Below, piece after piece: positions 3,018 to 44,080 of a stretch of DNA of 50,020 nucleotides. The notes under the pieces are model-generated. The model did no database searches. It saw only the letters and a list, made by a program, of their open reading frames with translations, and had not been told where the DNA came from. The stretch spans positions 1 through 50,020 of the forward strand of contig WFXH01000085.1 of assembly GCA_015490715.1 (NCBI GenBank), written 5' to 3'. Position numbers and translations under genes: made by a program. The number at the start of each line of letters is the position of its first letter. Position 1 is the first letter of the stretch. Origin of the DNA: Saprospiraceae bacterium (lineage in GTDB: Bacteria; Bacteroidota; Bacteroidia; Chitinophagales; Saprospiraceae).

Positions 3018-6000
3018 TCAACGCTCGATGACGACTGTACCCTTGTAATACCGCTCTACTCCCGAAGGCAGGATGACTTTGAATACCCAGAGGTATCCAC
3101 CTTCAGGGAGTGGATTGTTGTTGAAGTCGACTCCGTGCCATCCTTCTTGCAGCTCGCTGCGGTAATTTACTTTTTCCCAGACGAGGCGGCCCCACCGATC
3201 GTAAATGCGCAGGACGTTGTCGTACTGGGCATCACAGGTGATGAGCAAGAAGTCGTTGAGCCCGTCGTCGTTGGGCGTGATCACGGGGCGAGCGGTAAAG
3301 CACTCGGTGGGCTCGTCACCCCTGATGCATACTTTAAAGTTTACAATGACTTCACAGCCCTTGGCATCGGTGACGATGACATTGCAATTGACGCCTCCGG
3401 GGAGATTGTCGACCACCTCATCTGTGGCGTCATTGCACCACAGATACGTGTAGGGCGGAGTACCTCCCTGAACATTGACCCGATAGATAGCATCTAAAGC
3501 TCCACTTGCCGTAGCACACGAATCCACTTGGATACTCGCCTCCAGTACCGGCGGTTCGGTCAAGATCACTACCTCTTCGAAGACGATGTTGCCGTCCTTA
3601 TCTATGACGGTCACGGTGTAGGTGCCTGCGGGCAGATTGGTCGCAATCGTATCGCGCAGGTTGTCGTCGTGGCTCCACATGACGGTGTAGTCCGCAGGAT
3701 TGGCACCCTTGATGTGTACGGCAATCCAGCCGTCTTTGGCCCCAGCGCAACTGATGTTGTAATTGCCGTTATACTCCGAGGTCGTCACCATGATCTCTAC
3801 CGTATCTCCACCACCACCACCGCATTCCAACAAAGGTAGTAAGATGGTCGAATCTGTCGTACATCCTTTGCTGTCTGTCACCTTAAGGGTATAATACCCA
3901 GGCTCTACACCGATGAGGTCTTTATTGTTGCTCACGACCTGTTCGTCTTCGTTTTGCCATTCATATGTGTAATCGGGTGTACCTCCCGTCACTTTGATGT
4001 AGATCGCTCCATCGCGCCTTCCCGGGCAGGTGGTATCGATGGCCATGATGGTGATTTCGATCGGATCGGGCCCATTGACGACAAAGGTGTCGGTATAGAC
4101 GATATTGGTGGTATCCATGAGGTGCACCACGTAGGTGCCGGGGCAGAGATTTTCTAAGGTGAAGCCTTCGACATTGTTCACCCCGGGTCCGTTCCAAACT
4201 GCCTTCAACGGACCACATCCGCCTTCCGCGCTAATCTGAATGCGGCCGTCGCAAGAGCCTGGGCAGGTTTCGTCACGTACCTCTGACGAGGTGATTCGGA
4301 TCTCCTGTCCTGGCACGAAGATGGTGTCGTTGCCCACAAAACAATAGACTCCTTGATAGACCGTATCGTAGTCCGTGCCATTAAAGACATATTGGGGCAC
4401 CGAATCCCGTACATTTAATACCTCATAAGTGCACGCACAGACATTTTCCACCACAGGTCCCTGGGTACCACTTACCAACCACCGTATGGAATACTTTCCG
4501 TAACCTCCATTCACCTGCGCAACGATGCGTCCGGTGCAATTTCCAGTGGTATCGGGAGTGATCATCCAGCTTTTGGTCAACGGCGGAGGATCCTGTATGA
4601 CGAAATTGCCGAATGTGTCTTTTTCACCCGTAGTAGTATTTTCGATGACGACGAAATACGTCCCCGCACTTACGTTGTTCAGTGTCTGATTGGTGCCGCC
4701 CTCAGAGGCGGGTATGGGCATGCCATTGCGGTACCATTGATAGCGATAAGAGCCGGGCGGTTGCACATCGAGCACGATCAATCCGTTGTTGTCGCCATGG
4801 CACCGCGGTGGATGGATGCGCGTCGCGGTAGCGTTGATGCCTCCACCTCCGGGACAGACGATCGTCACTTTTCCGTGTTCGACCCGGTACGGTACTGTGT
4901 TAAAATTGCTATCATTAAACTCAATCCTCTTAATCGTTCCAGCGGTATCAATGCGAACGGGAGACATATCCTTACAATCCCCTCTTGCGTAGAAACACAC
5001 CTTGAATAGGGCCGTACTATCCTGCAGAGTGACACCCGTAGACGACGGATGGCTCCACGAAAAGAACAGGAACTTCGTCTTCGAATCCACACTAAAGGGG
5101 TCGAGCCCCTGAGGTAAAATGAAATCTTCGACGGGATTATCGCGGTCGATCTCTAAGACATTGGTGTCGTACTTGACGACAAATTGTGCGGTTTCGATAT
5201 CCTTGAAATTGTTGACCTGTATGGGCACACAGATACGCTCCCCCTTGTTGACATTGTAATCCTGGACAAAGACCGTCAGGCGATCATCGCCTCCTGTATC
5301 ACACGCCACGGTGACCGTGCCGGGCAGATAGAGATTGCGCGGATCTTCGTCGGTCAAGACGCTCGTGTAGACCCGGTTGAGGTAGAAGATATCGACCGTG
5401 TCGGGTTGATAGAGAGTATCGTCTTGGATGTAGATGAGTGTCGAATCGTTGCAATTGCCCACCACATCGAAGCAAACATCAAAAAGGCGCGTACCATCCG
5501 GTGCATTCAATGGATCCACAAGAAGCGCTATCAAGGATAATGCTCCATCAAAGACCTCCTCACTAAAGACAGTACCGCTCGAATCTGGAATGTACTGCAA
5601 GTTGAAGTTTTTCAATCGCGGGTTGCTCAACACAGCGGGATCCCACTGGATCGCAAATTGAAAGGACAATACGTCTTGATAGTGATAAAAGCGCACGGGC
5701 ACGCACACTTCCTCACCCGGTCGTGCATCGCGACTTTCAAAGGCAACTAAAAAAGTATCGATTCCCGAAGTGTCCAATTGGATGGTGAGGCTACCCGGTG
5801 TGGTCCGAACGGGTAATTCATTGCCGTCGGGATCGGTAAATTCAAGGTAATACGTGTTTAGCTTGTGATCAAAGGTCTCCGAAGTCACCTGCGTTGTGTT
5901 GCCCGGATTGCCCGTCAATTGGAAACACGCCTTAAAAATGGTCGATCCATCGGGTAGGGACACTCCATTGGGGGAATTTGGCTGCCAGGATACATTTAAA

Positions 6001-6746
6001 AAGGTGCTATCGACATAATTGTATTGCTTGGTGGGCTCAAAAGTGCCCAAGGATGGGTGTGCATCGATGATGCGCGTAAAACGCGCCACTTTGGTGTCCC
6101 ACCGCACCGGCATGGTAAAAGAAGCGACATTATCAAAATTGTCGACAGTAAAATCGATGCACACCTCCTCGTTGGGAGCGCCTATCGCACTACCAATATG
6201 CACTACGATAGTGGTATCACTATTGCCTCCACCGCCAGCACCCTCGACAAGGTACACCGCATGCGTCAAGGTATAGGGCAGGTTAACATCCGGCCCTGAC
6301 CTCTTGTCCTGGACAATCTCAATCTCGGTCTTTGTCGTGTTCGAAGGCACAATGTAGACGGTATCCGGCCTGGACGTGGACTGTAATGCGGTGAAATACA
6401 GGCTTAACAAATGCGTCTTCGGAATCTTAGTCACACCTTCGTTGGTAGCCTTATTCCATTGCACGCGAATGGTGTCCGAATCAAACGGTTTAAACACCGA
6501 CATGGAGGAAAAATCGGAATCCTCTATCCTGTGTCCGAGGTATTGCAAGGTATTGGTGTCAAACTTGAAGCCAAAATCCAAACCAATAACATCTTCGAGA
6601 TTGGAGATATAGACCTTTACTTGGAGGGAATCTCCTACCGATACAGTATCTCCCACTGCAATGAGTTCGACCACCTGATTTTGTTGAGACCAGAGCTGGA
6701 CAGTGGAAAATACCACAACCGATAATGCCCATAGGATTTTTTTCAT
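3018..6746 (-). CDS. Giant T9SS surface protein: four cohesin-like modules, SprB-like repeats, CHU_C end
   Basis: 1242 residues from the ATG at 6744-6746, which gives a clean signal peptide (MKKILWALSVVVFSTVQLWS). An in-frame ATG at 6890 would add 48 residues with no signal character. Modules in order: four cohesin-like beta-sandwiches (about residues 24-165, 178-322, 330-482, 489-632), each with a G-[ED]-x-[VI]-C/Q-V-P/K-V-type opening and an F.V.[FYW]D...L strand; about six SprB-like repeats (637-1140) with GGTPPYTYLW- and AGTYTVTVIDKDG-type signatures; and a CHU_C gliding-motility C-terminal module (1150-1242) with ITPNDDGLND and IYDRWGRLVW. Oligo-glycine linkers separate blocks (169-174, 633-636, 976-980). 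It is probably exported by the T9SS and anchored with the adjacent PorP/SprF protein. The ligand is unknown; cohesins classically bind dockerins, and the upstream gene encodes one. Confidence 0.9.
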   Translation of the reverse strand: MKKILWALSVVVFSTVQLWSQQNQVVELIAVGDTVSVGDSLQVKVYISNLEDVIGLDFGFKFDTNTLQYLGHRIEDSDFSSMSVFKPFDSDTIRVQWNKATNEGVTKIPKTHLLSLYFTALQSTSRPDTVYIVPSNTTKTEIEIVQDKRSGPDVNLPYTLTHAVYLVEGAGGGGNSDTTIVVHIGSAIGAPNEEVCIDFTVDNFDNVASFTMPVRWDTKVARFTRIIDAHPSLGTFEPTKQYNYVDSTFLNVSWQPNSPNGVSLPDGSTIFKACFQLTGNPGNTTQVTSETFDHKLNTYYLEFTDPDGNELPVRTTPGSLTIQLDTSGIDTFLVAFESRDARPGEEVCVPVRFYHYQDVLSFQFAIQWDPAVLSNPRLKNFNLQYIPDSSGTVFSEEVFDGALSLIALLVDPLNAPDGTRLFDVCFDVVGNCNDSTLIYIQDDTLYQPDTVDIFYLNRVYTSVLTDEDPRNLYLPGTVTVACDTGGDDRLTVFVQDYNVNKGERICVPIQVNNFKDIETAQFVVKYDTNVLEIDRDNPVEDFILPQGLDPFSVDSKTKFLFFSWSHPSSTGVTLQDSTALFKVCFYARGDCKDMSPVRIDTAGTIKRIEFNDSNFNTVPYRVEHGKVTIVCPGGGGINATATRIHPPRCHGDNNGLIVLDVQPPGSYRYQWYRNGMPIPASEGGTNQTLNNVSAGTYFVVIENTTTGEKDTFGNFVIQDPPPLTKSWMITPDTTGNCTGRIVAQVNGGYGKYSIRWLVSGTQGPVVENVCACTYEVLNVRDSVPQYVFNGTDYDTVYQGVYCFVGNDTIFVPGQEIRITSSEVRDETCPGSCDGRIQISAEGGCGPLKAVWNGPGVNNVEGFTLENLCPGTYVVHLMDTTNIVYTDTFVVNGPDPIEITIMAIDTTCPGRRDGAIYIKVTGGTPDYTYEWQNEDEQVVSNNKDLIGVEPGYYTLKVTDSKGCTTDSTILLPLLECGGGGGDTVEIMVTTSEYNGNYNISCAGAKDGWIAVHIKGANPADYTVMWSHDDNLRDTIATNLPAGTYTVTVIDKDGNIVFEEVVILTEPPVLEASIQVDSCATASGALDAIYRVNVQGGTPPYTYLWCNDATDEVVDNLPGGVNCNVIVTDAKGCEVIVNFKVCIRGDEPTECFTARPVITPNDDGLNDFLLITCDAQYDNVLRIYDRWGRLVWEKVNYRSELQEGWHGVDFNNNPLPEGGYLWVFKVILPSGVERYYKGTVVIER

Positions 6747-6905
6747 CTTCGAGGTATTTGGATTCACCAATTTGGATGCTGATGTCTCAGCCTTCCATCC
6801 AGTGGTATGCATGCTTTTGACTTTATAATGCAGTAAATTACGAAATTGTTGCATACCGATCTCTACTCTACCAATCAAAAACCTTACCATTATGCACCTT
6901 TAACG

Positions 6906-6939
6906 AAAAAAAATGCCCACCATTGAGCATGGTGGGCAT
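6906..6939 (-). terminator. Rho-independent terminator after the dockerin/cohesin gene
   Basis: A perfect 11-base stem (ATGCCCACCAT / ATGGTGGGCAT, 6913-6939) with a five-base loop. It is followed on the minus strand by a run of eight T (complement of 6906-6913). It lies 32 bases past the stop of the 6971-11191 gene, so that transcript should end before the cohesin-array gene. Confidence 0.9.
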
Positions 6940-6970
6940 AGAGAGGGTTACTTACCACGGTGGATTTACC

Positions 6971-9900
6971 TTACCGCAAGAGAATCATCTTCCGCGTAGC
7001 GGTGTATTTACCTGCTTCGAGTTGGTAGTACATGATTCCACTTCCTCGGAGTTCGCGTTCGTCGATTTCGACTTCATTGTACCCCTTGTCGTAGTATCCT
7101 TCGACGACGTGCAATACCTTTCCGGAAATGTCAAACACCGTCAGTTTGATCCAACCCGCTTCGGGCAGTACGAAGCCAATGGTGGTGTAGTGCGAAAACG
7201 GATTGGGACGGTTTTGGAGTAGTGCGAACCCATTTTCATCGACCTGCTCCTTAAACTGCATACGTGCCTTGTGGGTCTGGAACTGGGCATCGTACACCTC
7301 GGCAGGCGTCATAGCTGAGTTGATGGCAAAGGCCTCCCGCAAATCGCCGTCACGTAGTGCCGTAAACACGATCGTAAAGATCACATCGCCCTCTTTCAGC
7401 CCCTCTAAATGCATCCAGCTCGTGGTAAACATGCCCTGCTCGAGCTCGGCAAAGTTGAAGTTGTCGTTGGTGAGTACTACTTCGCCCTCTTCGATTTCGT
7501 CAAATCGTAGGATAGACGGATCGAATTTGACGGTAAACTGACCGGCGATGATTTTATCCAGCTGAATGCGGATGGGCACTTTGACGACTTGTCCCTCTTC
7601 GTAACGCACATTATCGACCAGGAAGGCCATTTCTTGCCCACGCGTACCGTTCGGATCGTAGGCATCACCCGACACGTCACCGATTTTAATGCCCATGAAG
7701 TTGGCATTCGGCACATTGGTCTGGAGATTTTGCAGCACGAGCTTGTCCGCAAAGGGGAACGGATTGCGCGGATCGTCAAACTGGAAGCTCTCGGGTACGA
7801 AGCGCCACGATTTCTGATCGTTCATCGTAAAGCGTCGTATCTTGCCCAATACCAGATGGCGGATGATCTGAATGTCGCCGACCGTGACCTTGCCATCGTT
7901 TGTGGCATCGGCAGCGATAAACTGTACCGGATCCGACAACAGACGTCTACCGAGGATGTGATTTTGAATGAGCACCAAATCGAGCGTCGTCACTCCACGG
8001 AGATGCTCCTTGTCATACTCCGGCTGGATAGTGTAGTCGTACCCCTTCTGGATATTGCGGAAGGCATAGTACCCAGTGCTGGGATCCGGCTGTACGACTT
8101 TTCGCGTACCACTGACGTTGTTGGTCAGCGCGACATCGACATCTTTGAGCAAATTGCCCTTGGCATCGTAAATCTTTCCACCTACAGCTATAAGACTGTT
8201 GCCACAGACAGAATCGGGATCTTGCAAGTCGAGCGTGACTTCGCAGTACGTCTGGTTGTTGCACTGGTCGATGACGTACATCCAGAACACCTGCTTGCCG
8301 ATGAAATCACAATCTAAGACGAACTCTCCCGTGCGAGCATCCGACCAACGCCCCGTTGCGGGATGGAAGAGTCGGAATCGCACATCGGTATTTTCGGGGC
8401 AATTGTCGTAGCTCTTGAGATTGAATTCGTTGGCCCAAATTGAAACGGTCTTCGACGAAGGCATGATGACCGTGCGCACTTCGTTGCGGCAGCTGGGCGT
8501 CGGCAGCTTGCGATCCAGTACGTCGAAGTAGAAGTACTTACACTCGCTGACGTTGCCGCATTGATCTTTTACTTTCCAGTGGATGCGATACTCGCCAAAG
8601 TCGAAGTACCCCACTACGCTATCGGCCGTGCCGTGGACAAACCTTCCGTATGGCTCCCATGTGCCTGCACCGTTGTGCGGGCCAGGGCGGCAGATGTTGC
8701 CGTTGACTTTGCGCTCGATCCAGTACTCCCACTGGAGATTGTCGGAGGCGCAATTGTCGTTGGCCGACGCCTTGAGTCGGATCTTGCGCGTCGAGGTGAA
8801 GTTGTCCTGTTTGCAGGCATAATCATCCAGCGGAGTAAATTCGATGTTGTCGCATGTAAAGGCCGGTGGCTCATTGTCGATGACCTTGATGATCTGCGTA
8901 TGGCACCATACACCCGGTGCACCACAGTTGAGATTGTCGCGCACCACCTGACACCAATCGATGACTGTCCACTGGCGGATAATCTTCAGGCACGCATCCG
9001 ACCCAAGGGTGAAGATCTTATCGTCATAGTTGATCGCCAGCGAATAACATCCACGCGCATTGCCGGCTACGAGCTCGGGCGTAAGCGTACCCCACGGCGC
9101 GTCTTCCGAAGGATCAAGGTCGTAGTCCGATGCACATCCGTCGTCAATGGTCGTATCGGGCACAAGTCCCCATATTTCATCGTCGAGCTGAAAGCGCTGG
9201 GTCTCTCGAATCGTTATGACCTGCGTACACGAAGCCGTATTGCCTGATCCGTCGCGCACGATGAAGGTGCGACGTACCCAGCCGATATTGCGCTTGCAGT
9301 CGTATTCTCGCTCGGATACGCGCACTTCGAAGGTCACGTTGCACATATCGTTGTCGTAGTATTCGCCATCGATACGCTCTTCTACGGGCACGCTCCACTG
9401 CACGCGCGGATCATTGGCTGCCGGAACGGGATTGCGCGGCGAGCCTGCCTTGACGATGGTGCCGAAGACGCTGAGATCCGACAAATCGTAGTCGCACGGC
9501 ACCGTCACATCCGGCGGACAGACCACCGTCGGCGGCAGCTTGTCTTGCACCGTCACCTCTACCATACAGGTGTTCATATTGCCGCGCTCGTCGACTACCT
9601 TGAGCACCACCATGTGCGGATTGCGCGTCAAATCCCGACAGCAAAATTCGACAAACTCTCCAAAGCTGGTATTGCCGCGTATACCACAGTTGTCGCGCAT
9701 GCGGCGTATCAACATCGTATCTATACCGCAGTTGTCCGTACTACCATCGTCAATACTGGTGGCATAGAGTTTGGCCTTGCCGTCGTAATTGAGCGACACG
9801 ACGGTGTGCTCATCGCATACGGGATTAGGCGGCACATCGTCGTAGACGTAGACATCGTACCGCGCAGTGACGTAGTTATTGCATTGATCCCTGAAATGGT

Positions 9901-11191
9901 AGATGATCCAGCTGTAGCCCGGCGGCAGATCTTCGACGTACCACTTACCCTTGATACTGTCGTAGTGCGACAGATCAAAGCGCTCAGGATAGGTTGCACC
10001 CACACAAGACTCGGGATCGCGCGCTACTTTCACACCTACCTTAAACAACTCGACCTCACTACAAGCCTGTACAGTAAACCTCGGATCCGTAAAGGGATCG
10101 GGGATATAAAACTTCTTGCTAAGGCAATTCCAGTAGTTCATCCCTACCAGGTCGGTATATTTTGCTATACAATCGAGATCACCTCGGCAGGTATCCCCAA
10201 ACGGCTCAGGACAAGTACCCGGTGCCGATACCGCCAATCCCACATCGATCACTTTGATGATCTGAAGATGCTCCAGCGGATTGTCGGGTCCCGTAGGTGT
10301 ACAATCATTAATGCACTTCCAGTGTCTCAATATTTTGAACGAACCCGGACAAATATCGACCGTATCATCTGTATAGTCCATCCACAGCTCACAGGCATAA
10401 TACTGTGGCTTGGGAGTCTGGATGGGTAGAGGCGTACCGTTTAACATAGGCATACCTGCACTGCGCGGATCGGTCAAGGTGGGATTGAGGCGATAGTCCA
10501 CGCACGAGAATATCGTATCCGGCGGAAACGTGATGTCCGCGCAGGTCGCCCGACGCAAGTACACCTCCATCATACACGTGTCCGATACGTTGCCCGAAGC
10601 ATCCGTCCAGTACACCCATCGACGCCACACACCACTAATGCCCGCCGAATCACAGGGATAATCCACCCATTCGGTGTTGACGACGTGCATCGTCACAGGC
10701 CCACACGCATCGAAGGCTGCACTATCGGTAGGCCAACGATACCTGTCCGGACCCGGAAACTGATGGCACCACACGGTATCGGGCGGCGGACATTGTACCA
10801 CTGGAGGAAATTTATCCTCGATCTTGAGATGTCCCCAGCACGAGTTGCCATCAATATACACGGCATATTGCAGGGTCTGCCCTACGTACTCGGCTGTAAT
10901 GGTATCTCCAGGGATGGTGTCACCATTGCTGTCGTACACGCGTACTTCATAGGGACACCCTGCTCCTGGATCTTCCAACACCATGTCTGGCGTGATGACC
11001 GCAATACAATTGGTGTCCATCGAAACATGCACCAAGTCGTTGCATGCTAATGGACAAATTGCTTGCGCCTGCACTTGCTGTTGGCTTAAGAGCAGTCCCA
11101 ACCAGATGGCCATGATCCGCCACGTCAGGTGAAGCACTCCTCTCCATGTGCTCTTCAAGTTCATCGGTTTTTGGTAAGCCTCTCTTCTCAT
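6971..11191 (-). CDS. Giant T9SS protein: HYR-like modules, dockerin, cohesin-like module, type A sorting domain
   Basis: 1406 residues. A signal peptide ends near AQA at residue 44; an alternative ATG at 11164 would still keep it. Residues 45-1000 are a series of HYR/PKD-like immunoglobulin-type modules, with repeated DKFPPVVQCPPP-, DASGNVSDTC- and DNEPPAFTCD-type signatures and many cysteines. Then come a carboxypeptidase-regulatory-like fold (1004-1055) and a dockerin: a degenerate first calcium loop, RGVTTLDLVLIQNHILG, and a near-canonical second loop, DATNDGKVTVGD, at 1095-1106. A cohesin-like module follows (about 1185-1310), then a type A T9SS sorting domain (1318-1406) with QNRPNPFSHYTTIGF. 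It is followed by a strong terminator. It is probably secreted and cell-surface bound through the T9SS. No enzyme domain is visible. Its job is not known; a structural or adhesive role is inferred. Confidence 0.9.
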   Translation of the reverse strand: MRREAYQKPMNLKSTWRGVLHLTWRIMAIWLGLLLSQQQVQAQAICPLACNDLVHVSMDTNCIAVITPDMVLEDPGAGCPYEVRVYDSNGDTIPGDTITAEYVGQTLQYAVYIDGNSCWGHLKIEDKFPPVVQCPPPDTVWCHQFPGPDRYRWPTDSAAFDACGPVTMHVVNTEWVDYPCDSAGISGVWRRWVYWTDASGNVSDTCMMEVYLRRATCADITFPPDTIFSCVDYRLNPTLTDPRSAGMPMLNGTPLPIQTPKPQYYACELWMDYTDDTVDICPGSFKILRHWKCINDCTPTGPDNPLEHLQIIKVIDVGLAVSAPGTCPEPFGDTCRGDLDCIAKYTDLVGMNYWNCLSKKFYIPDPFTDPRFTVQACSEVELFKVGVKVARDPESCVGATYPERFDLSHYDSIKGKWYVEDLPPGYSWIIYHFRDQCNNYVTARYDVYVYDDVPPNPVCDEHTVVSLNYDGKAKLYATSIDDGSTDNCGIDTMLIRRMRDNCGIRGNTSFGEFVEFCCRDLTRNPHMVVLKVVDERGNMNTCMVEVTVQDKLPPTVVCPPDVTVPCDYDLSDLSVFGTIVKAGSPRNPVPAANDPRVQWSVPVEERIDGEYYDNDMCNVTFEVRVSEREYDCKRNIGWVRRTFIVRDGSGNTASCTQVITIRETQRFQLDDEIWGLVPDTTIDDGCASDYDLDPSEDAPWGTLTPELVAGNARGCYSLAINYDDKIFTLGSDACLKIIRQWTVIDWCQVVRDNLNCGAPGVWCHTQIIKVIDNEPPAFTCDNIEFTPLDDYACKQDNFTSTRKIRLKASANDNCASDNLQWEYWIERKVNGNICRPGPHNGAGTWEPYGRFVHGTADSVVGYFDFGEYRIHWKVKDQCGNVSECKYFYFDVLDRKLPTPSCRNEVRTVIMPSSKTVSIWANEFNLKSYDNCPENTDVRFRLFHPATGRWSDARTGEFVLDCDFIGKQVFWMYVIDQCNNQTYCEVTLDLQDPDSVCGNSLIAVGGKIYDAKGNLLKDVDVALTNNVSGTRKVVQPDPSTGYYAFRNIQKGYDYTIQPEYDKEHLRGVTTLDLVLIQNHILGRRLLSDPVQFIAADATNDGKVTVGDIQIIRHLVLGKIRRFTMNDQKSWRFVPESFQFDDPRNPFPFADKLVLQNLQTNVPNANFMGIKIGDVSGDAYDPNGTRGQEMAFLVDNVRYEEGQVVKVPIRIQLDKIIAGQFTVKFDPSILRFDEIEEGEVVLTNDNFNFAELEQGMFTTSWMHLEGLKEGDVIFTIVFTALRDGDLREAFAINSAMTPAEVYDAQFQTHKARMQFKEQVDENGFALLQNRPNPFSHYTTIGFVLPEAGWIKLTVFDISGKVLHVVEGYYDKGYNEVEIDERELRGSGIMYYQLEAGKYTATRKMILLR

Positions 11192-11271: not shown

Positions 11272-11961
11272 TTAGCCATTTAACAACACGCGATTGTCCT
11301 TGAAATACTGCACCAAATCCTCTACAGAATTCATGCCCAACTTCTTCAGGATCCGGTTCTTATGCGCCTTGGCTGTGTTCTTACTTATGTACAATCGTCG
11401 GGCAATCTCATCAGTCGAAAGCTCCTCCAATAACAGCTTCAATACCTCCATCTCACGCTTGGTCAAAAGCATCAATACATCGCACTGATGCAAAGGTTCC
11501 TTCTGCGCACTCCCCCCCTGTTCCCCCTCCTTCAATGGCGGCGATAGACGCAAGCCTGAACTCAAGTATTTCTTTCCCATCAACACCGTACGCAAAGCCG
11601 AGAGTAACTCCTCTGTACCCTCTCGCTTCGAGTAAAATCCATGAACTCCACAGCGAAAGGCATACTTGACATAGCGGTACTCTTCCTGATCAGACAACAC
11701 CAACACATAAAAGGGCGGGCGCCCCTTATAGCGCTCTTTGATCTTCGTCAACACTGCTCCCCCATCCAGACGCGGCAAAAACAAATCAATGAGCAGAAGC
11801 TCCAATTCCCCCTTTACGACCTGCTCCATTACACATATGCCATCGTAACACACCGCCACTACCTCATACTGTGCCTCCCCCTCCGAGCGCACCAACAACT
11901 CCTCCAATCGATGCGCATATCCTCGATCTCCACACGCAATCACTGTCCGTATTTTCCCCAT
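11272..11961 (-). CDS. LuxR/NarL-family response regulator (orphan)
   Basis: 229 residues from the ATG at 11959-11961; the longer reading begins with a TTG and adds 15 residues with no domain content. An N-terminal receiver domain has phospho-acceptor D59 (LLLIDLFLP), S90 at the switch position and K112. The usual paired acidic residues near the N-terminus are reduced to one (CGD instead of DD). A C-terminal LuxR-type helix-turn-helix follows (LTKREMEVLKLLLEE, then ISKNTAKAHKNRILKKLGM). No sensor kinase is adjacent. It lies just upstream of the giant surface protein on the same strand with 80 bases between, so control of the surface cluster is a reasonable guess. The family call is firm; the target is inference. 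Confidence 0.88.
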   Translation of the reverse strand: MGKIRTVIACGDRGYAHRLEELLVRSEGEAQYEVVAVCYDGICVMEQVVKGELELLLIDLFLPRLDGGAVLTKIKERYKGRPPFYVLVLSDQEEYRYVKYAFRCGVHGFYSKREGTEELLSALRTVLMGKKYLSSGLRLSPPLKEGEQGGSAQKEPLHQCDVLMLLTKREMEVLKLLLEELSTDEIARRLYISKNTAKAHKNRILKKLGMNSVEDLVQYFKDNRVLLNG

Positions 11962-12059
11962 CTTTGTATCGATTCTCAGGTGTTCATCTCTCAAATAAAA
12001 TGCCAATTTTTACTTTACACCTTCGCATGACCTATTTTTTAGAAGTATAAAATCCTGAA

Positions 12060-12954: not shown

Positions 12955-14859
12955 TCACTTCAATAGACGCACCATTTTATAGGCGTCATTGGTCTCGACG
13001 ATAAAGAGGTAGAGACCCGGTGTCAGAGCGCGATCAAAGTGGAGGCGAAACTTATTTTCGCCCTTAGTTAAAAACATCGTGCGCGCCCATTTCGTCGAGC
13101 CATCGGCCGCGACCAGCTTGAGTTGCACTTCCTTGTCGTCGGCCGCGTAGATATTGACGAGATGTTCATCGGTGAGGATGCGCGGCAGGATATTGACATC
13201 TAGATCATTGGCCACTACCTCGGGCCAGCACCGCATTTGCGATTGTTCGCGATAGATGAAGACGCTATCTTGAATACAATCGATGTCGGTATTGCGGAGG
13301 ATGATGTCGCTCAGGCGCGTACGGCGTATTTCTTCCTTTTCTTCTTCGCTGAGCCTGGGATCGTTTTCGTAGTAAAATCGATCGCCGTCTCGGAGTCGCA
13401 GGAATTGCTCGGTGAGGATGCGATTGAGCAGCGTACCTACCATCTTGTCGGACATGTCCTTTTCGGCCAAAAGCCCTACCCACGAGTCGATACTATCCAC
13501 ATCATTGAACGCCGCCTGGATCTCCTGCAACAAATCGGGATCATCTGTGAGTTCATCAAAGGACTTCAATCGCGGCAAGCCGAAGTCCTCTCGCAGGTCG
13601 TTGTAGCACGGTATTCCCATATCGCGACCGCGCTGCATGTTGATGGCTGCCAAATCAAATCCCACGACAAAGTTGGAATGCGGATCTTCAAAGACAAAAT
13701 TGCGCAAGCCGTTGATCATCTCGTCATCGAGCTCTTGCATCATGTGACCCGCCATGCCTTTAAAGAAGGGGTCTATGCCGAAACGTAGGACATGGATGGG
13801 CTGGAAAAACGCATCATTAAAGTCCAGCGCTCCCTGTGGCAATGGATTGCCGTTGTGATCAAGACGCAAAAACTCCTGGCCGATGAGGGAATGACCCATG
13901 CGGAAAGCCGAGGCTGCAAAGCTCAAGATGATATTGGGGTTGACCTCTGGGTTATACCCCTGATATTCGGGTAGATGTACGCCTATTGCCGGCAGCCACT
14001 CGTCGAATGTGATGTGTTGGAGCAGAGCCGACACCCATCGACGTCCCCTTTGGAAGAGCTCTTCGTCGCTTAACGAGGGATCTTTTCGTGCCAGCTCTTC
14101 GCAGTAGCGGTTGTGCTCACGTACAAAGAGGGTATGCATAGCGGTGAGCAACACGTTTTCGTTGGCGCGCACATCGCCGGCGATGAAATATTTTTTGACA
14201 TTGCCAAAATCGATGGCCATCTCCGGCGCATTGGGGTCGACCGGCGAATTAAACTCCCCATCCACGGTATTCCACGGCATGAGATTGCCCTCCGAGACGC
14301 GCAACTTCCCTCCTTCGTAACTGCGCAACCACACATCACGGTCGCCCACACCGTAGACATTGCTGGCATCGATAAAGGCGGTAATCCTATTGCGGTACTG
14401 CCGCGGATTGTCTTCACTGGTCCCCGTACCTTCTATCGGACGGGCTCGCAAAAAAGGTATGAAGCGCACCTTCGACATGAGCGTGTCGTCGTCGGGCACT
14501 GCAATGGGGAAAAACTCATTCCCCACCTCCATCAATACAATATCGTGATCGATAAATTGTCCCCACACCCAAAACAAATCACTGACCTGTCGCGCATTGT
14601 ACTTCACCTCCGACTGATGGCACACAATATTGCTCACCAGACGGGGATTGACCGATGCACCTCCGGGCGACCCTATCTTGTCGCGAAAGGCCACACGACC
14701 TACACGCACCATCGGAGCCCCCGCCGCCCCCCAATCCGGATGATTGGGATTATTTCCACGGCCATCCATCCTCGGTATCTCCTGCCCCATACTTGCCCCC
14801 ACCAATAACCCCACACACACCATCATGCTCAGCCCCCTTACATAGCGCGATACCTTCAT
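12955..14859 (-). CDS. Secreted animal-type heme peroxidase with T9SS sorting domain
   Basis: 634 residues. A signal peptide (1-25, ending SMGQ) is followed by an animal/peroxinectin-type heme peroxidase domain (about 30-520) with its key residues: QFIDHD at 101-106 (distal His105, heme-linking Asp104), REHN at 247-250 (catalytic Arg247 and heme-linking Glu248), proximal His323 in RMGHS, and Asn407 in INMQRGRD. The last 70 residues form a beta-rich module ending in ETNDAYKMVRLLK, consistent with a type A T9SS sorting domain. By family knowledge it uses hydrogen peroxide to oxidise halides or organic substrates outside the cell. The start agrees with a TAnnTTTG element at 14888-14895. It stands alone with its own promoter. 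Substrate and physiological role are unknown. Confidence 0.92.
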   Translation of the reverse strand: MKVSRYVRGLSMMVCVGLLVGASMGQEIPRMDGRGNNPNHPDWGAAGAPMVRVGRVAFRDKIGSPGGASVNPRLVSNIVCHQSEVKYNARQVSDLFWVWGQFIDHDIVLMEVGNEFFPIAVPDDDTLMSKVRFIPFLRARPIEGTGTSEDNPRQYRNRITAFIDASNVYGVGDRDVWLRSYEGGKLRVSEGNLMPWNTVDGEFNSPVDPNAPEMAIDFGNVKKYFIAGDVRANENVLLTAMHTLFVREHNRYCEELARKDPSLSDEELFQRGRRWVSALLQHITFDEWLPAIGVHLPEYQGYNPEVNPNIILSFAASAFRMGHSLIGQEFLRLDHNGNPLPQGALDFNDAFFQPIHVLRFGIDPFFKGMAGHMMQELDDEMINGLRNFVFEDPHSNFVVGFDLAAINMQRGRDMGIPCYNDLREDFGLPRLKSFDELTDDPDLLQEIQAAFNDVDSIDSWVGLLAEKDMSDKMVGTLLNRILTEQFLRLRDGDRFYYENDPRLSEEEKEEIRRTRLSDIILRNTDIDCIQDSVFIYREQSQMRCWPEVVANDLDVNILPRILTDEHLVNIYAADDKEVQLKLVAADGSTKWARTMFLTKGENKFRLHFDRALTPGLYLFIVETNDAYKMVRLLK

Positions 14860-16853: not shown

Positions 16854-18683
16854 CTAAGAACGGTCGTGCTCCAATACAAGTTCGTCTTCGTTGAGTGGCA
16901 CGACGATGAGGGTGGAAGTGCCTTCGTCGAGGGCTGTCTGGACGTTGATTTCGGCATGGAGGTAATTGACGCGGAAGCGGATATTTTCGGTGCCCATACC
17001 TCGATGGACAGTAGTGGGGTCGTAGCCGGTACCGTCATCTTCCACCAGGATTTGGAGGTAGCCGTCTTGTTCGGTGAGCTGTACCAAGATATGGCGGGCA
17101 TTGGCGTGTTTGATGCTGTTGTGGAGGAGCTCCTGGATGATATGGTAGATATGGATGATTTTGGATTGGGGTACGGGTGTGTGGAGGTTGTAGCACTGTA
17201 GGTTAATCTCTGCTTTGGAGCCCTTTTGGTATTTGCGGATTAATTCTCTGACGGCTCCTTCGAGCCCCAGGCCATCGAGCGAGGTGGGCATGAGGTTGCG
17301 TGCGATGATGCGCACCTCTTGGCAGGCGAGGTGGATGAGCTCTTTGATTTTTTGAATTTCGGTGGTCTTCTGCTGTGCATTATTCGAGCCGTGGATGAGC
17401 TCGTCAAATCGCAGTCTGATGGTCGACAACAAGCCACCGAGGCTATCGTGGAGGTCGCGAGCGACGCGTGCTCTTTCGAGTTGTTGGCCTTTGAGCATGC
17501 TCTCCATAGTGGCCAGTTCTTTTTCGCGCTGAAGCTCTTTGATGCGTTGTTCGTTGATTTTTTTCTGTTGTTCGAGGATGATTTGATTGGATTTCAATCG
17601 ATTGTAATAGTACACCACCATGATAAATACGATGATTAAAAGGGCGGAAACAGTGACAGCGATGGCATAGAATCCCACTTGTTTGAGGCGCACTTGGAGT
17701 TCTCTGCGGCGACGCTCGTCTTCGAGTAGCTGAATTTCACGTTGTTTTTGTTCGGTCTCGTACTTGACGATGAGGCGATTGATGATGGATTGGCGTTCGC
17801 GGTTGAGCAGGCTGTCGTTGAGCTGGATGTAGGCGTTGAGGTAGAGATTGGCTTCTTCAAACTTGCCGAGTTGCTGGAGGTTGTCCGCAAGTTTGCGGTA
17901 GCACATGCGTCGGAAGAAGGCATTTTTGCGCCCTTCATCGGTTTGCAAGGCCTGCAGGAGCGCTTTGACGGCTTCTTCGGTGGAATCGATGTACTGGTAG
18001 ATGTTTGCCTTGTAGAAGAGGCTCCTGGCCAGGTAGACTTCTTTGCCGAGGGATTGGCTGAGGTGGATGGCGCTATCGAGAGCTTCGAAGGCCTGGAGGT
18101 AGTTGTCGGGGTCGTTGGAGGCAAGCCACATGCCCTTTGCAAAGTACCAGCGCATGCGCACTTCGGGGTGGTGGAGCTGGCGGTTGAGTTTTTCCAGCTC
18201 CAGCAGGTGATTTTCAGCAAGGGGAATGTCGCCGCTGTGGAGATGCACCGGTACAGACAAGGACAAGGCATAAGCCACTTGCTCTTTTAAATGAGGCTGT
18301 GACCGAAAATAGCGCAATGCCTTGGTCAACAATCGTGCAGCTTCGGGATAGTATCCCATCTGGTAGTAGATGTCGGCAAGGTAAAGGGAGGATTTGTAAT
18401 GCGCTAAGGTGTCTCGATTGCGCAGCTGAAGCTTCATCAGGCGCGTGAAGTACTCTACTGCTTGGAGAAAATCGCGTTGGGTCCGCGCCTTATGTGCCTG
18501 ATAGAAGAGCTGGTTGAGCAATGTGGTGTCGGTGGGTTTTTTGATGAGGGAGTCCCAAAACACATACCAATCGACACTGGGAAAAGGTATATCGCGTGGT
18601 TTTTGACTATTCGCCCTAAAGGGAATCAAAAAGAGCAAGATTCCGACATAGACCGCTGAGCGTATGAGGTTGGATAGACACAT
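16854..18683 (-). CDS. TPR-containing sensor histidine kinase (NarL/HisKA_3 class)
   Basis: 609 residues. A signal peptide or first membrane segment (about 8-25) precedes a periplasmic TPR-like helical region (about 55-300). A coiled segment rich in Glu/Arg follows, then one membrane helix (338-360), a cytoplasmic coiled coil (365-405), the HisKA_3 dimerisation and phospho-acceptor region with H412 in ARDLHDSLGG, and an HATPase domain with N-box ELLHNSIKHANA and G-box VEDDGTGYDP. It autophosphorylates and should pass the phosphate to the response regulator encoded immediately upstream on the same strand (12 bases between the genes). The signal sensed is unknown; TPR sensors of this layout are common in Bacteroidota. 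Confidence 0.93.
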   Translation of the reverse strand: MCLSNLIRSAVYVGILLFLIPFRANSQKPRDIPFPSVDWYVFWDSLIKKPTDTTLLNQLFYQAHKARTQRDFLQAVEYFTRLMKLQLRNRDTLAHYKSSLYLADIYYQMGYYPEAARLLTKALRYFRSQPHLKEQVAYALSLSVPVHLHSGDIPLAENHLLELEKLNRQLHHPEVRMRWYFAKGMWLASNDPDNYLQAFEALDSAIHLSQSLGKEVYLARSLFYKANIYQYIDSTEEAVKALLQALQTDEGRKNAFFRRMCYRKLADNLQQLGKFEEANLYLNAYIQLNDSLLNRERQSIINRLIVKYETEQKQREIQLLEDERRRRELQVRLKQVGFYAIAVTVSALLIIVFIMVVYYYNRLKSNQIILEQQKKINEQRIKELQREKELATMESMLKGQQLERARVARDLHDSLGGLLSTIRLRFDELIHGSNNAQQKTTEIQKIKELIHLACQEVRIIARNLMPTSLDGLGLEGAVRELIRKYQKGSKAEINLQCYNLHTPVPQSKIIHIYHIIQELLHNSIKHANARHILVQLTEQDGYLQILVEDDGTGYDPTTVHRGMGTENIRFRVNYLHAEINVQTALDEGTSTLIVVPLNEDELVLEHDRS

Positions 18684-18695
18684 TGCAAAGCGGTA

Positions 18696-19346
18696 TTATT
18701 GGTCGATATCGATGAGGCCTTTTTCGAGCGCTTTGCGCACCAGTCCAGCGATGTTGCGCACGTTGAGCTTGGTCATCAAGTTGCGGCGATGGGTTTCGAC
18801 GGTTTTGAGCGTAATGGATAGCTTGTCGGCTATTTCCTGAGTGGTGTGCTCTTTGACGATGAGTTCGAGTACCTGGCGCTCGCGTCGGGAGATCCACGGG
18901 CTGTCTTTGCTTCGTCTCAGACGCATTCGGTCCCGTTTGTGCTCGTGTATGATGCGGGACACTTCGGGGCTAATGTACTGACCGCCTTCGTAAACAGTGC
19001 GAATAGCTGTGAGAAGTTCGCGCTTGCCGCTATCCTTTAATATATAGCTGTGCACCCCCAACTGCAGGGCCTGAAGGATGAAGCTCGGCTCGTTGTGCAT
19101 GGTCAATGCGATGATGCGGACCCCATCGAGTGAGTGCAAGACTCTCCGCGCTACCTCAAGCCCCGGACAATCGGGCAGATTCAAATCGAGCAGCAAAACA
19201 TCTGCCGGTCGCAGCATCAAAGAGTCCAATACTTCTCGACCGCGATGGCACCATCCCGTCACCTCAATGTCGCGAGCGTCTTGCAAAATCGAGACGATTC
19301 CATCGACAAACATTTCGTGGTCATCGGCGATGAGCACTCGAATCAT
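18696..19346 (-). CDS. NarL/LuxR-family response regulator, partner of the adjacent kinase
   Basis: 216 residues. The receiver domain is complete: acidic pair D8-D9, phospho-acceptor D54 in LLLDLNLPD, T82 and K104. A C-terminal LuxR helix-turn-helix (about 150-210) has ISRRERQVLELIVKEHTTQ and the recognition helix ITLKTVETHRRNLMTKL. It is the first gene of a two-gene unit, followed 12 bases later by the TPR sensor kinase. It presumably binds DNA as a phosphorylated dimer. Target genes are not visible. No TAnnTTTG element was seen directly upstream. Confidence 0.93.
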   Translation of the reverse strand: MIRVLIADDHEMFVDGIVSILQDARDIEVTGWCHRGREVLDSLMLRPADVLLLDLNLPDCPGLEVARRVLHSLDGVRIIALTMHNEPSFILQALQLGVHSYILKDSGKRELLTAIRTVYEGGQYISPEVSRIIHEHKRDRMRLRRSKDSPWISRRERQVLELIVKEHTTQEIADKLSITLKTVETHRRNLMTKLNVRNIAGLVRKALEKGLIDIDQ

Positions 19347-36815: not shown

Positions 36816-39800
36816 TTAGCGCAATATGGTCACATTACCCGTTTTGACAAACTCCTGTCCGTCGACGCAATACACATACACCCGTACGGCATAGACATCA
36901 GGCGGGAGCCTTTTGCCTTGGTACGTTCCGTCCCACGACTCGTCCGGACGCTTTGTTTCAAACACCTTCTCACCCCATCGGTCGTAGACCATCACGTGGA
37001 TGGAGTCGATAAAATTGCTGAAGACTTTCCATTCGTCGTTGATACCATCGCCGTTAGGACTAAACGCATTGGGAATGTAGATATCGTTGTCGTCACAGGT
37101 AGGTCGCTTGACCACGACCAATACCGAAGCCGAGTCGAGGCAATTGCTGTCGTTGGTCACATAGACGGTATAGCGCGTAGTATAATCGGGCATAGCCACT
37201 GGATCATTGCAATTGTCGCAGCTGAGCGTTTCGGAGGGATCCCACTCATACGAACTATATCCCACTTGCACTTCCAACTGGGATTTTTGACCCAAATAAA
37301 TCGTATCCGGCGTGGCCGTCGCAATGGGCTTCGGGCGCACCCTCGACACGATAAGGGTATCGTAGAGCTCGTACATGCACCCCAAGGTCCGATGTCGTAT
37401 CTTGAGGACAAATTCCGTAGTCGTATCGACGCGCACCCAGATACGGGTCAAATCACTGGAATCAACGATCACATCGCTCGGCATCCAGCGATAGGTCAGT
37501 GGTCCTCCCCCCTTGTTGACAACGCCGATCTCCGCCTCGTGACCGTAACACACGTAGGGCGGCATTAAGATTTCCACGTTTAAGAAATACGGAATCACCC
37601 GCACGCTATCTAAGCGATAACAGCCGTACGGATCCTTTAGCAACACGTAATAGGTCGTCGGCTTTTGGACATGCACCAGGAGCGTATCCGTCGTATCGAT
37701 CAGTACCCCGCTAGCATCGCGCCACTCATAGGTCAGCGGCAAATCACTGCGTACTCCCAAATACGTACTGTCTGAATAACAAAGTATCGTGTCGTCGGAG
37801 ATTTCGTATGAAATCGTTGGCGGTACGAGCAACAGCACAGACCGCTCTACTTGGCAATCCGGATACGTCGTATCAATGACCGTGACGGTATAGACGCTCG
37901 TCGTATCGACACGCGCAATGGGATTGCCGACATTGGGATCAGACAGTCCCCGTGGAGGATGCCAACGATATCGATATTGCGGCGGCGCATCGGGCCACAG
38001 CTCCACCGGGGCTCCCTCACACGATATAACGGTGTCTGGCGGAAATTCCGGTATGTAGCCTACCTCCACCGTCTGCGTGATCGCATTGACGCAATACCCC
38101 TCCACAATGAGGCTGACACGATAGCGGCCTCTCTGCTCGTAGACATGTACTGGATGCGTCTCCATCGAACTTTGACCATCTCCAAAATCCCACTGATATC
38201 GCCCAGATTCGGAGAGATTGGTAAAGCGCACCTCCAGCGAATCGCAATCATGCTCCCAGCGAAATCCCACGTCTGGCAAAGGCTGTACATCGACGTTGAT
38301 ATCGCCTTCATCGCTACAGCCGTATTGATTGGTCGCGGTGAAGTGCAAGGTATGTCTTCCCACCGTATCGAAATACGCCACGATCGTTCCGGTCCCTTGC
38401 CCCCTGACGACAACATCTGCAGGGGTCCATTGATAGTTGATTACGTGCTCAGGTCGTTGATTGGCGACACGTATGTCTACCGTGTCGTACAAGCACGGTT
38501 TTATACTGTCGACGAAAGAGAGCCGCACTATTTGATTGCTGACATGGATGCTGTCCATGCCCGGACAGTTGTTTTGACTCACCGCACGCACGTAAATAAC
38601 GGTATCCGGAGTGTGTACGTCTAAATCAAAGGTGTACGATCCTCGCTTTAAGATTTGTGAAAAGTCGCGTCGATTAGACCATTCCACGGTGCTCTCCACG
38701 CCTCCATTGGTGTGGAGGCGAATGCGCTCTGTGCAGGCAATGCTATCGCCCAACACGTCGATGTCGAGTAGTTCGTTGACCTTGACAAACACACTGCGCT
38801 CAATTGCACAGAGACCGTCTGAAATTGTCACGTAGTATCGGGTCGGACGATCCGGAAAGGCGAGCGGATTGGGACAATCGGCACAGCTCAAGCTATTAGG
38901 CGGCGACCACCGATATTGGAATTGCTCATCGACCGTGTCGATGATCCGCGCCGTATCGCCAAAACATATCGCCACACTGTCCGAGATGAAATCAATGTCG
39001 AGGATGTGGATGGGTATCGTCTGGACCACACTATCGACACACCCTCCCTGTGTATTCAAAACGAGCTGTACCTCCACAGTGTCCGAGCGATGGTGGACAA
39101 AGCGCACCTTCTGACCGGTGGCCCGAAAGACCCCACCCGAATAGCGCACTCTCCAGTGTAAACTGTCATCGATGATGGCATAGCGGCGATCAAAACTGAT
39201 CGATTGGAGTTCGAGCACTACAGAATCTTCACAATGGCTGACTTGATAGTCGAAGTCGGCCCCATAGCCACCGTCACCGTAGATGTATATGATTTTTTCC
39301 GCGCTGTCGATACAGAGACTGTCGCGCTCTGCGATCAACACGACGCGGTATTCACCTGGACCGGGATAGGTATAACTGGGATTTTCCTCGGTAGAAAACT
39401 GACTGCGGTCGCGATTGGCCTGAAAATACCAGCGAAAATTGCCGCCGCTGCTGTTGTTGGTAAACTGCACTGTCAGGCCTTCACAGACGATTGTATCTAC
39501 AAAGAAATCGGCGATGGGCTTTTCGGGGCAAATGCGTATGTTGATCTCAAAATCCCTGCGCACGACATTGATGAGCTTGCCATTGCGATATTCTTCGACG
39601 CAGACGCCTATGAGGAAGGTGCCGGTTTCTTGCGGTACTCCGCGCATGATACCCGTGACGGGATCGATCGTCAAGGGCGTACCTCCAAAGAGATTGTTCA
39701 GCCCGTAGGGAGGTTTGTAACGCACCAATTCCCAGGTACGAGGAGATGGGGGAGGTACGGGCTTTTGGTGATTGCGATCGCCACCGGCATAGGGCACGCA

Positions 39801-42970: not shown

Positions 42971-42989
42971 TTCCTCTACCCTTTAGGTG

Positions 42990-44000
42990 TTAATACACAG
43001 GACAGCTCTTAAACTGCGCGGGGGGCCTGGGACGAAAGAAGTAATACTGCACGTGCATCTCAGGCCCTCCCCTTCCTGACGTCGCCACTTTAAAGGGCGA
43101 ATAATTGTAGTCATAGCTCAAGCCCACATACCAATTTCGATAGTGCAGACCCAGTTGCGGAATGATGGCATCGTCTACTCTCCATCCTGCTCCCAGGTCA
43201 AGGGCAAGCTCCCGCCCCGGCACCAGGCTCAAATACCACCGAAAGAGCCCTCCTGCTACGATTTCGCGATATACTTCCTGCCGTTGCCACAATGCCGAAG
43301 CCACGAGATCCAATCGGCGCACCAATTGCAGGCTCAACTGTGCCGAAGCACTCAACCTGCTAAAACGCGGCACATTCATACCACTGGAGTAAAAGGTCTG
43401 TTGTGCACGCAAAAAGTGATGATACGCCCCACCGATGTTCAACCACGTCCGCGGCGAATGTTGATAGCGATAGTGGATCCCCCCTGCAAGGTCGACATAG
43501 ACAAAATCCAGCCGCGCAAACGGCTCCTGGGGATTAAGCCCGGGATTGTATCGCTCCCCATCCCACTGATTGGGAAAGCGCAAATTCCCCTCTCTAAAAG
43601 CCCTCCTGCCCAAATTGATTGCCATTCCTGCACTTAAAATATTTCGCCTTGAGGGTATGAAATGGTAGGCGCCCATGAGATTGGCATCGAGGATTTCCAA
43701 CTTGCTATCCCCCGCATAATCGTATAAGAGCTTTCCGCCAAGACCCCAAAAGTGCTTCAAAGCATAGGTGGGGTACCATTTCATATCAAAGCTCACTCCA
43801 AAGGTGGTATACGGCACCGGCACCGTCGTCCACTGATTGCGGTACACGGCAGCTACGCGCATATCCGCTCGATGCACCGACGTCATCGCAGGGTTGAGAT
43901 CCATCGGCGCATTGAAAAACTGACTAAAATGGACATCCTGACCAAACCCTATGCCGGGTAGGAGGATCACAATCCAGAGGTATAGATATGCCATGCGCAT
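42990..44000 (-). CDS. PorP/SprF family type IX secretion outer-membrane protein
   Basis: 336 residues from the ATG at 43998-44000; the longer reading begins at a TTG. A signal peptide (MRMAYLYLWIVILLPGIGF, cleavage near GQD) is followed by the family opening VHFSQFFNAPMDLNPAMT and VYRNQWTTVPVPYTTFG. Beta-barrel strands end in GPEMHVQYYFFRPR. It is the first gene of the operon PorP/SprF - PorE-like - CHU_C protein. It likely holds or exports the type B cargo encoded two genes downstream. It is more diverged from the copy at 2036 than a recent duplicate would be. Confidence 0.92.
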   Translation of the reverse strand: MRMAYLYLWIVILLPGIGFGQDVHFSQFFNAPMDLNPAMTSVHRADMRVAAVYRNQWTTVPVPYTTFGVSFDMKWYPTYALKHFWGLGGKLLYDYAGDSKLEILDANLMGAYHFIPSRRNILSAGMAINLGRRAFREGNLRFPNQWDGERYNPGLNPQEPFARLDFVYVDLAGGIHYRYQHSPRTWLNIGGAYHHFLRAQQTFYSSGMNVPRFSRLSASAQLSLQLVRRLDLVASALWQRQEVYREIVAGGLFRWYLSLVPGRELALDLGAGWRVDDAIIPQLGLHYRNWYVGLSYDYNYSPFKVATSGRGGPEMHVQYYFFRPRPPAQFKSCPVY

Positions 44001-44080
44001 AGAGGGTACATTTAGATGGACCAATCTTTTTGATTTTAACGATGTAAGGGTTTATTTGGCTTGTATATTTCGAAGGCTAA

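Follow-up and report, generated by a model that had tools for sequence, protein, structure and literature searches.

The window analysed here, a stretch of 50,020 bases, is an entire contig (WFXH01000085.1, referred to as C85) of a Saprospiraceae genome of 2.45 Mb in 115 contigs. Its minus strand carries a row of four genes, with gaps of 80, 80 and 40 bases between them, that encode a LuxR-type response regulator, a surface protein bearing a dockerin and a cohesin (P2), a surface protein with an array of four cohesins (P1) and a carrier of the PorP/SprF family. Cohesin-dockerin joints are known chiefly from plant-wall-degrading clostridia, whose CipA/CipC, OlpA and OlpC are cellulosome scaffoldins and single-cohesin anchors. 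This work concerns the locus formed by the array and its neighbours, which is conserved in the family, and the possibility that P1 is a scaffoldin for dockerin proteins in which no enzyme is seen. The four genes are:

11272..12006, minus strand: LuxR-type response regulator (GerE 7.1e-16, Response_reg 2.7e-11), 80 bp 5' of P2 and on the same strand
6971..11191, minus strand: P2, type IX secretion system (T9SS) type-A surface protein with dockerin and C-terminal cohesin, 1406 aa
3018..6890, minus strand: P1, four-cohesin array, SprB repeats and T9SS type-B tail, 1290 aa
2036..2977, minus strand: PorP/SprF carrier of the array (PF11751 9.3e-45, 153.7 bits), without cysteine

P1 comprises 1290 codons, a number reduced to 1242 with Met49, the methionine of the signal peptide, as the start of translation. 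The following parts were recognised in it:

6234..6683, minus strand: cohesin module 1 (Pfam 27.1 bits; residues 3-151 of the model, Z up to 17.8)
5769..6221, minus strand: cohesin module 2 (no Pfam match; iterated profile; residues 157-309 of the model, Z up to 17.6)
5334..5762, minus strand: cohesin module 3 (Pfam 24.4 bits)
4833..5291, minus strand: cohesin module 4 (Pfam 39.8 bits; residues 472-610 of the model, Z 15.6)
3309..4838, minus strand: SprB-repeat region (five stretches by Pfam SprB, six by our own profile)
3021..3308, minus strand: CHU_C, T9SS type-B sorting domain (Pfam CHU_C, TIGR04131)

The whole protein matches Pfam Cohesin (PF00963; E 3.9e-22, in three stretches), SprB (2.1e-22) and CHU_C (1.4e-18, 67 bits), and its type-B tail reaches 35.4 bits with TIGR04131, barely above the cut-off of 35. 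The initial annotation had described the four N-terminal modules as cohesin-like, and they are indeed cohesins. Scanned one by one, modules 1, 3 and 4 lie above the Pfam Cohesin cut-off of 24.1 bits; module 2, which gave no Pfam Cohesin match when scanned alone, was detected by an iterated profile and by its fold. A model of the four modules (mean predicted local distance difference test, pLDDT, 76.7; predicted template-modelling score, pTM, 0.44; 24 sequences) was compared with solved structures, and modules 1, 2 and 4, which the fold evidence covers individually, gave best Z scores of 17.8, 17.6 and 15.6 against solved cohesins, with root-mean-square deviations of 1.8, 1.9 and 1.9, respectively, module 3 being assigned by its Pfam profile. 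All the entries down to Z 11.8 were cohesins, many of them in complexes with dockerins, and the next fold, a pilin, appeared at Z 10.3. The Foldseek lists obtained for this model and for that of the P2 tail contained many long chains of multiple Ig-like domains with template-modelling scores of about 0.1-0.25, and were not used as evidence. When the arrays of relatives are included, 50 of 56 modules match Pfam Cohesin at E 0.01, and a PDB search with the array-cohesin profile ranked scaffoldin cohesins first (2vn5_A, 7.8e-13). Membership of the four modules in another Ig-like family, which had been named as an outcome that would speak against the annotation, was rejected by profile and by fold. 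With four cohesins, P1 has the multi-cohesin make-up of a scaffoldin. A search for plasmid-borne relatives of the array gave no match.

The neighbouring P2 is built of the following parts:

8222..11059, minus strand: residues 45-990, HYR-like extracellular region with the motif D-x-x-PP-x-x-x-C and no Pfam HYR match
8015..8185, minus strand: residues 1003-1059, CNA_B/CarboxypepD_reg-like beta-sandwich (22.5 bits, below the cut-off of 32.3; ordered in the model)
7841..8014, minus strand: residues 1060-1117, dockerin (loop 1 non-canonical, loop 2 near-canonical)
7277..7627, minus strand: residues 1189-1305, tail-type cohesin (Pfam 3.5e-9; solved cohesins at Z 10.5-12.7)
6974..7207, minus strand: T9SS type-A sorting domain (TIGR04183 28.6 bits; PorU chain at Z 10.4 over residues 296-417 of the model)

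The Pfam Cohesin match of P2 spans residues 1190-1282 (E 3.5e-9). Dockerin_1 (PF00404), at residues 1067-1113, scored 21.6 bits in the scan of the whole protein, below the cut-off of 22.9, 25.4 bits with the stretch alone and 27.2 bits in the genome search, so that the two modules announced for P2 also belong to the families proposed, and PDB matches of profiles built from relatives agree with this. As had been stated, the sorting ends of the two proteins are of different types, that of P2 matching the type-A profile TIGR04183 with 28.6 bits (cut-off 23). The tail was modelled with high confidence (mean pLDDT 89.9, pTM 0.73, 36 sequences) as a succession of CNA_B-like sandwich, dockerin, linker, cohesin and sorting domain, with a hinge of pLDDT below 50 just before the cohesin. 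A scaffold made of HYR and SprB modules had been proposed for the pair; P1 does have SprB repeats, and a Pfam scan of P2 gave no HYR match, even with the threshold relaxed to E 10. The profile of P2-type dockerins retrieved from PDB 8x39 (deposited as a serine protease; 6.5e-14) and 4uyp_B (9.4e-12), the latter being the ScaB dockerin, whose structure was solved together with a cohesin. In 44 aligned P2-type dockerins, loop 2 has Asp at positions 1 and 12 in all the 44 and Asn or Asp at position 3 in 37, P2 having Thr at this position, as have 2 of the 44, and the helices are strongly conserved, with a His in helix 1 in 42 and an Arg in helix 2 in 37. The two canonical 12-residue calcium loops of type I dockerins were not found in this alignment. 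Relatives of the P2 tail occurred, among the matches listed, at 79 named loci, of which 57 are from Saprospiraceae or Saprospirales, five from Aureispira or Phaeodactylibacter and one from Cyclobacteriaceae, the remaining 16 being labelled only as Bacteroidota, Bacteroidetes, Bacteroidia or bacterium.

Conservation of the locus was surveyed in 60 genomes, 37 of the family (including the host's own; kinship as given by the genome search) and 23 of the order, with Pfam Cohesin and Dockerin_1 and complete counts per genome; a search with the array-cohesin profile covered 19 of the 60, including all the eight scored as lacking arrays. This rendered 31 array loci, distributed over 29 of the 37 genomes of the family, with two each in G016 and G019. 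The 31 loci are made up of 26 kept from 31 rows plus five added (L148, L149, L150, L151 and L154), the rows excluded being three with two cohesins and no type-B tail (L033, L035, L040) and two with one cohesin (L022, L034). Complete arrays contain 2 to 10 cohesins; L059 and L150 are truncated at the end of their contigs, L039 ends after four cohesins, 80 bases from the end of its contig, and L154, in which one cohesin is visible, was counted as an array locus in spite of being cut. SprB repeats are present in 29 of the 31 loci and a type-B tail in 28, and a PorP/SprF gene adjoins the array in 28, two of the three misses corresponding to contig ends. The gene found just upstream of the array encodes a dockerin-bearing type-A protein in nine cases, a lone-cohesin type-A protein in 13, PorP/SprF in five and an unrelated protein in two, with a contig end in the remaining two. 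The lone-cohesin proteins are of 256-327 aa (L049, L050, L051, L052, L053, L054 and L056, with further ones at L058, L059, L060, L062, L063 and L065), and none is found at that place in the window.

A dockerin gene detected by our own profile lies within 8 kb of the array in 17 of the 31 loci, whereas the density of P2-type dockerins would lead one to expect 1.35. The corresponding probability, 2.8e-16, is valid only for independent loci, which the array loci are not. The neighbourhood, whose absence in relatives had been put forward as a reason to discard the proposal, is thus conserved in them. These results indicate that the P1 locus is a conserved unit, composed of a dockerin(-cohesin) or lone-cohesin type-A protein, a type-B protein with 2-10 cohesins and SprB repeats, and a PorP/SprF carrier. 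The response regulator is probably part of it as well, a homologue being found upstream on the strand of the array in nine loci (the window, L028, L030, L032, L051, L063, L064, L067 and L150). Elsewhere in the window, at 16854-19346 on the minus strand, a TPR histidine kinase precedes a response regulator, again of the LuxR type, with kinship to that upstream of P2, and this set could be a sensor system for the latter. With respect to a genome of the same genus, the ratio of nonsynonymous to synonymous substitution rates was 0.13 for P1, 0.055 for P2 (982 codons of which are present there) and 0.037 for the PorP/SprF gene. These values, together with the rarity of matches in 14 control genomes (Pfam Cohesin in one, Dockerin_1 in two), show that the module matches are not noise.

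In the host genome 16 P2-type dockerins, including that of P2, were detected at E 1e-6 and 18 at 1e-3, and P1 is the single multi-cohesin gene. The initial annotation had presented the adjacent genes as a two-gene assembly: their adjacency is real, and with 16 P2-type dockerins to one multi-cohesin gene P1 and P2 are not a private pair, nor is the locus limited to them, given the carrier and probably the regulator. A further contig of the host (C22, L022) encodes a protein with SprB repeats, at least 901 aa long and cut at the contig end, whose N-terminal part bears one cohesin of the array type. Fifteen dockerin proteins of the host were scanned with Pfam, namely 12 of the 16 P2-type ones (P2 among them; all but one on C9, two on C75 and one on C102) and three others. 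They contain HYR, Big_9, PKD, SdrD_B and CarboxypepD_reg-like domains, with HYR or HYR_4C in eight of the 14 other than P2 (E 0.01). No enzyme domain was found among the 15, in agreement with what had been noted for P1 and P2; four frames begin at the end of a contig and a fifth was truncated by the stretch taken, and therefore an N-terminal or absent part of these five could conceal an enzyme. Dockerin-borne plant-wall enzymes, the mark of a cellulosome, were likewise not found in the 15 scanned. Another kind of dockerin is encoded at L018:4326-6794, in a protein of 822 aa that also contains Big_9 and Cadherin_5; its dockerin match (profile positions 1-52) spans about 220 bases, and matches of this shape were also found in G004 and G006, which have one and no P2-type dockerins, respectively.

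Each of the 29 array genomes has 3-24 P2-type dockerins, with a median of 13, and each of the eight without arrays has 0-3 (Mann-Whitney p 1.2e-5, ancestry ignored). In G004 the sole P2-type dockerin and the sole two cohesins detected by the array profile are encoded by two adjacent genes. Among the 23 order genomes, P2-type dockerins were found only in G048, which has two, in two neighbouring genes that also bear cohesins. A midpoint-rooted tree of 182 cohesins separates two kinds of them. One side (the supports of the two sides being 0.79 and 0.84) groups 117 array cohesins, 15 of the 16 lone cohesins, 12 others and two tail cohesins; the other contains 34 of the 36 tail cohesins, one lone cohesin and one other. 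The placement of lone and array cohesins together fits shared partners. The sequence of P2's own cohesin puts it in a clade different from that of the array cohesins, and this tail cohesin would be as possible a partner for the dockerin as the array of P1. One residue of a cohesin strand is Gln in 39 of 56 array cohesins and in 35 of 36 tail cohesins, at a position which we take to be the one that faces the dockerin in known complexes.

As regards the attachment of P1 to the cell, type-B substrates of the T9SS are described as having specialised carriers (PMC12618676), type-B proteins as being anchored by PorP-like partners, and SprB as binding SprF (PMC9143113). P1, with its type-B C-terminal domain and the adjoining PorP/SprF gene, conforms to this arrangement. 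A Cys-X-Cys in the tail of Flavobacterium johnsoniae SprF is described as tying the adhesin to the moving track and as dispensable for export (PMC12635249). No tail cysteine was found in any of the 28 array-adjacent carriers, so that none has the Cys-X-Cys in the periplasmic tail that marks carriers of gliding adhesins. A role of P1 as a gliding adhesin, considered in view of the sprB/sprF-like locus, is less likely on these grounds, the contrary case being a carrier at L034. There (L034:6689-13920, in G029) a single cohesin, not counted as an array, is present in a type-B protein of 2084 aa. A dockerin-cohesin protein is encoded directly upstream, and the PorP/SprF carrier, of 319 residues, has cysteines at 308 and 311, unlike the array carriers. 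The host genome has SprA and GldM; its GldJ relative is below the cut-off (best stretch 375 versus 458 bits), and two control genomes also match. Because array-adjacent carriers have no tail cysteines, the array is likelier to be a static anchor than a gliding adhesin, although tracks in Saprospiraceae may attach otherwise.

A second type-B set, of another kind, is located in the window at 36816-44024 (minus strand) and comprises a PKD/CHU_C protein (1221 aa), a PD40/TPR protein (830 aa), which is perhaps PorE-like, and a PorP/SprF protein (344 aa) in which one cysteine is followed by the last three residues. The window also contains, at 12955-14859 (minus strand), a gene for an animal-type haem peroxidase (PF03098, E 6.4e-141), also matched by the iterated type-A sorting profile; this peroxidase of a Bacteroidota is probably secreted or located at the surface.

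The reading that we favour, to which we give about an even chance, is that P1 would be a T9SS-anchored, non-cellulosomal scaffoldin whose clients would be non-enzymatic dockerin proteins, P2 and about 15 others. The response regulator, to judge from its position, may switch the locus on; P1 would be exported by the T9SS, loaded on the neighbouring PorP/SprF carrier and held on the outer membrane, with its four cohesins standing out as sockets. Large non-enzymatic dockerin proteins, mostly of T9SS type A, could then plug in, and the cell would be covered with a coat or matrix in which various repeat proteins are mixed, with a putative role in structure or adhesion. In many relatives the lone-cohesin type-A protein beside the array, with its array-type cohesin, could be akin to an anchor with a single socket. 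The weakest link of this reading is the predicted binding of dockerin to cohesin, and which dockerin would pair with which cohesin is predicted likewise. Several observations weigh against it. The canonical ligands are absent from loop 1 of the dockerins, where 30 of the 44 aligned sequences show Leu at position 5 and 41 show Gly at position 7, not 6, and therefore calcium binding by this loop cannot be assumed. Five arrays are preceded by the PorP/SprF gene, with no dockerin or cohesin gene at that place, and the upstream gene is unrelated in G003 and G008. The statistics of adjacency and co-occurrence ignore shared ancestry, and the presence of Pfam cohesins and dockerins is not associated outside the family (3/5 versus 7/18). 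G006, G007 and G034 have six, three and two Pfam dockerins with zero, one and one Pfam cohesins, respectively, so that the cohesin is absent or marginal. A scaling of dockerin number with array size was ruled out, no relation being found in 25 genomes (Spearman 0.16, p 0.44). Moreover, in the first set of loci retrieved, which were chosen for cohesins, 36 of the 44 dockerin genes that encode a type-A tail have a cohesin of their own, and therefore the counts of dockerins and cohesins are partly linked in a trivial way.

It could also be the case that P2-type proteins bind one another, dockerin to tail cohesin, giving a head-to-tail polymer that arrays and lone cohesins would only start or cap. 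The dockerin-linker-cohesin order is fixed in 36 aligned tails (selected because both modules are present), relatives of the P2 tail are encoded by 562 of 588 stretches that match the pattern (among the matches listed, in named genomes), genomes without arrays retain up to three P2-type dockerins, and the low-confidence hinge may leave dockerin and cohesin free to part. We consider such a chain unlikely, however, since tail and array cohesins form separate clades, so that a single kind of dockerin would not have to suit the two, since genomes without arrays have few P2-type dockerins, and since no cohesin is seen in eight of the 44 dockerin genes that encode a type-A tail. The fixed order of the tail, together with the pTM of the whole-tail model, could instead point to a dockerin folded onto the cohesin of the same chain as a rigid type-A tail, the array being an adhesin that merely shares the module. 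This is very unlikely, given that the hinge separates both modules in the model, that the type-A proteins beside the arrays of L028, L030 and L064 have a dockerin and no detected cohesin, and that the lone-cohesin proteins have no dockerin. Another explanation would dispense with binding altogether: the cohesins would be only sturdy Ig-like modules of a stalk or adhesin, and the dockerin-like part a structural piece of the type-A tail region. The non-canonical loop 1 and the Pfam dockerins that remain in G006, G007 and G034 are in line with this, as is the description of cohesin domains in animal adhesion molecules (TMEM132, PMC6030884). It is nevertheless improbable in view of the adjacency of dockerin genes and arrays, far above that expected from dockerin density, of the co-occurrence of arrays and P2-type dockerins in the family, and of the Gln conserved in both kinds of cohesin.

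Compared with known systems, P1 resembles the clostridial scaffoldins in its tandem cohesins on a surface protein, its putative type-I-like dockerin partners and its matches in fold and profile, and the small single-cohesin proteins of relatives resemble anchors of the OlpA/OlpC type. It differs from them in that no cellulose-binding module or enzyme is seen, the dockerin has a non-canonical loop 1, a cohesin is also present in many of the dockerin proteins, the binding is as yet predicted, and the T9SS type-B tail and PorP/SprF would take the place of SLH or sortase in anchoring. A cellulosome-like complex has been predicted from the genome of Ca. Stygibacter (Cloacimonadota), with dockerin clients and a scaffoldin-like protein of tandem cohesins with a conserved C-terminal surface-attachment domain, for which the paper cites a T9SS review (PMC8542988). 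As described there, glycoside hydrolases and peptidases are among the clients and the scaffoldin bears CBM2/CBM3, whereas here no enzyme domain is seen and the array protein has SprB repeats and a type-B tail with its own PorP/SprF. Cohesins and dockerins outside cellulose degradation are also found in anaerobic methanotrophic (ANME) archaea, described as having proteins with a dockerin and up to five cohesins (PMC9012536), and the cohesin of Archaeoglobus fulgidus (2xdh) matches the models of the P2 tail and of P1 at Z 12.2 and 16.2, respectively. Those systems belong to another domain of life, without T9SS, and strong specific binding is reported as verified for the archaeal versions (PMC9012536), whereas it is predicted here. 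With F. johnsoniae SprB/SprF the locus shares the SprB repeats, the type-B tail and the adjoining PorP/SprF, with no PD40 (PorE-like) gene seen beside; it differs in the N-terminal cohesin array and in a carrier without the Cys-X-Cys described as required for sustained movement along the track (PMC12635249).

Cohesin-dockerin assembly and its non-cellulosomal use in archaea are therefore already known, and what the present results suggest as new is an enzyme-free assembly on a type-B T9SS scaffold; among the matches listed in the open-access PubMed Central literature, no report of such a system in Saprospiraceae was found. If the proposed scaffold is real, a family-wide, enzyme-free version on T9SS carriers would show the use of this joint outside cellulose degradation, and it may provide new orthogonal binding pairs, amenable to bench tests with single purified modules. 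In an extended form, which we regard as quite unlikely, the surface of Saprospiraceae would be an enzyme-free cohesin-dockerin polymer in which large repeat proteins, about a dozen or more in each species and most of them bearing both plug and socket, are chained, seeded on a static array of the P1 type that T9SS and PorP/SprF hold in place; bacteria would thus put the cellulosome joint to a general coat-building use, with a single locus as the unit of production and regulation. Saprospiraceae are described as abundant in wastewater plants (PMC9304909), and the scaffold, if confirmed, would suggest how members of this family build their surfaces.

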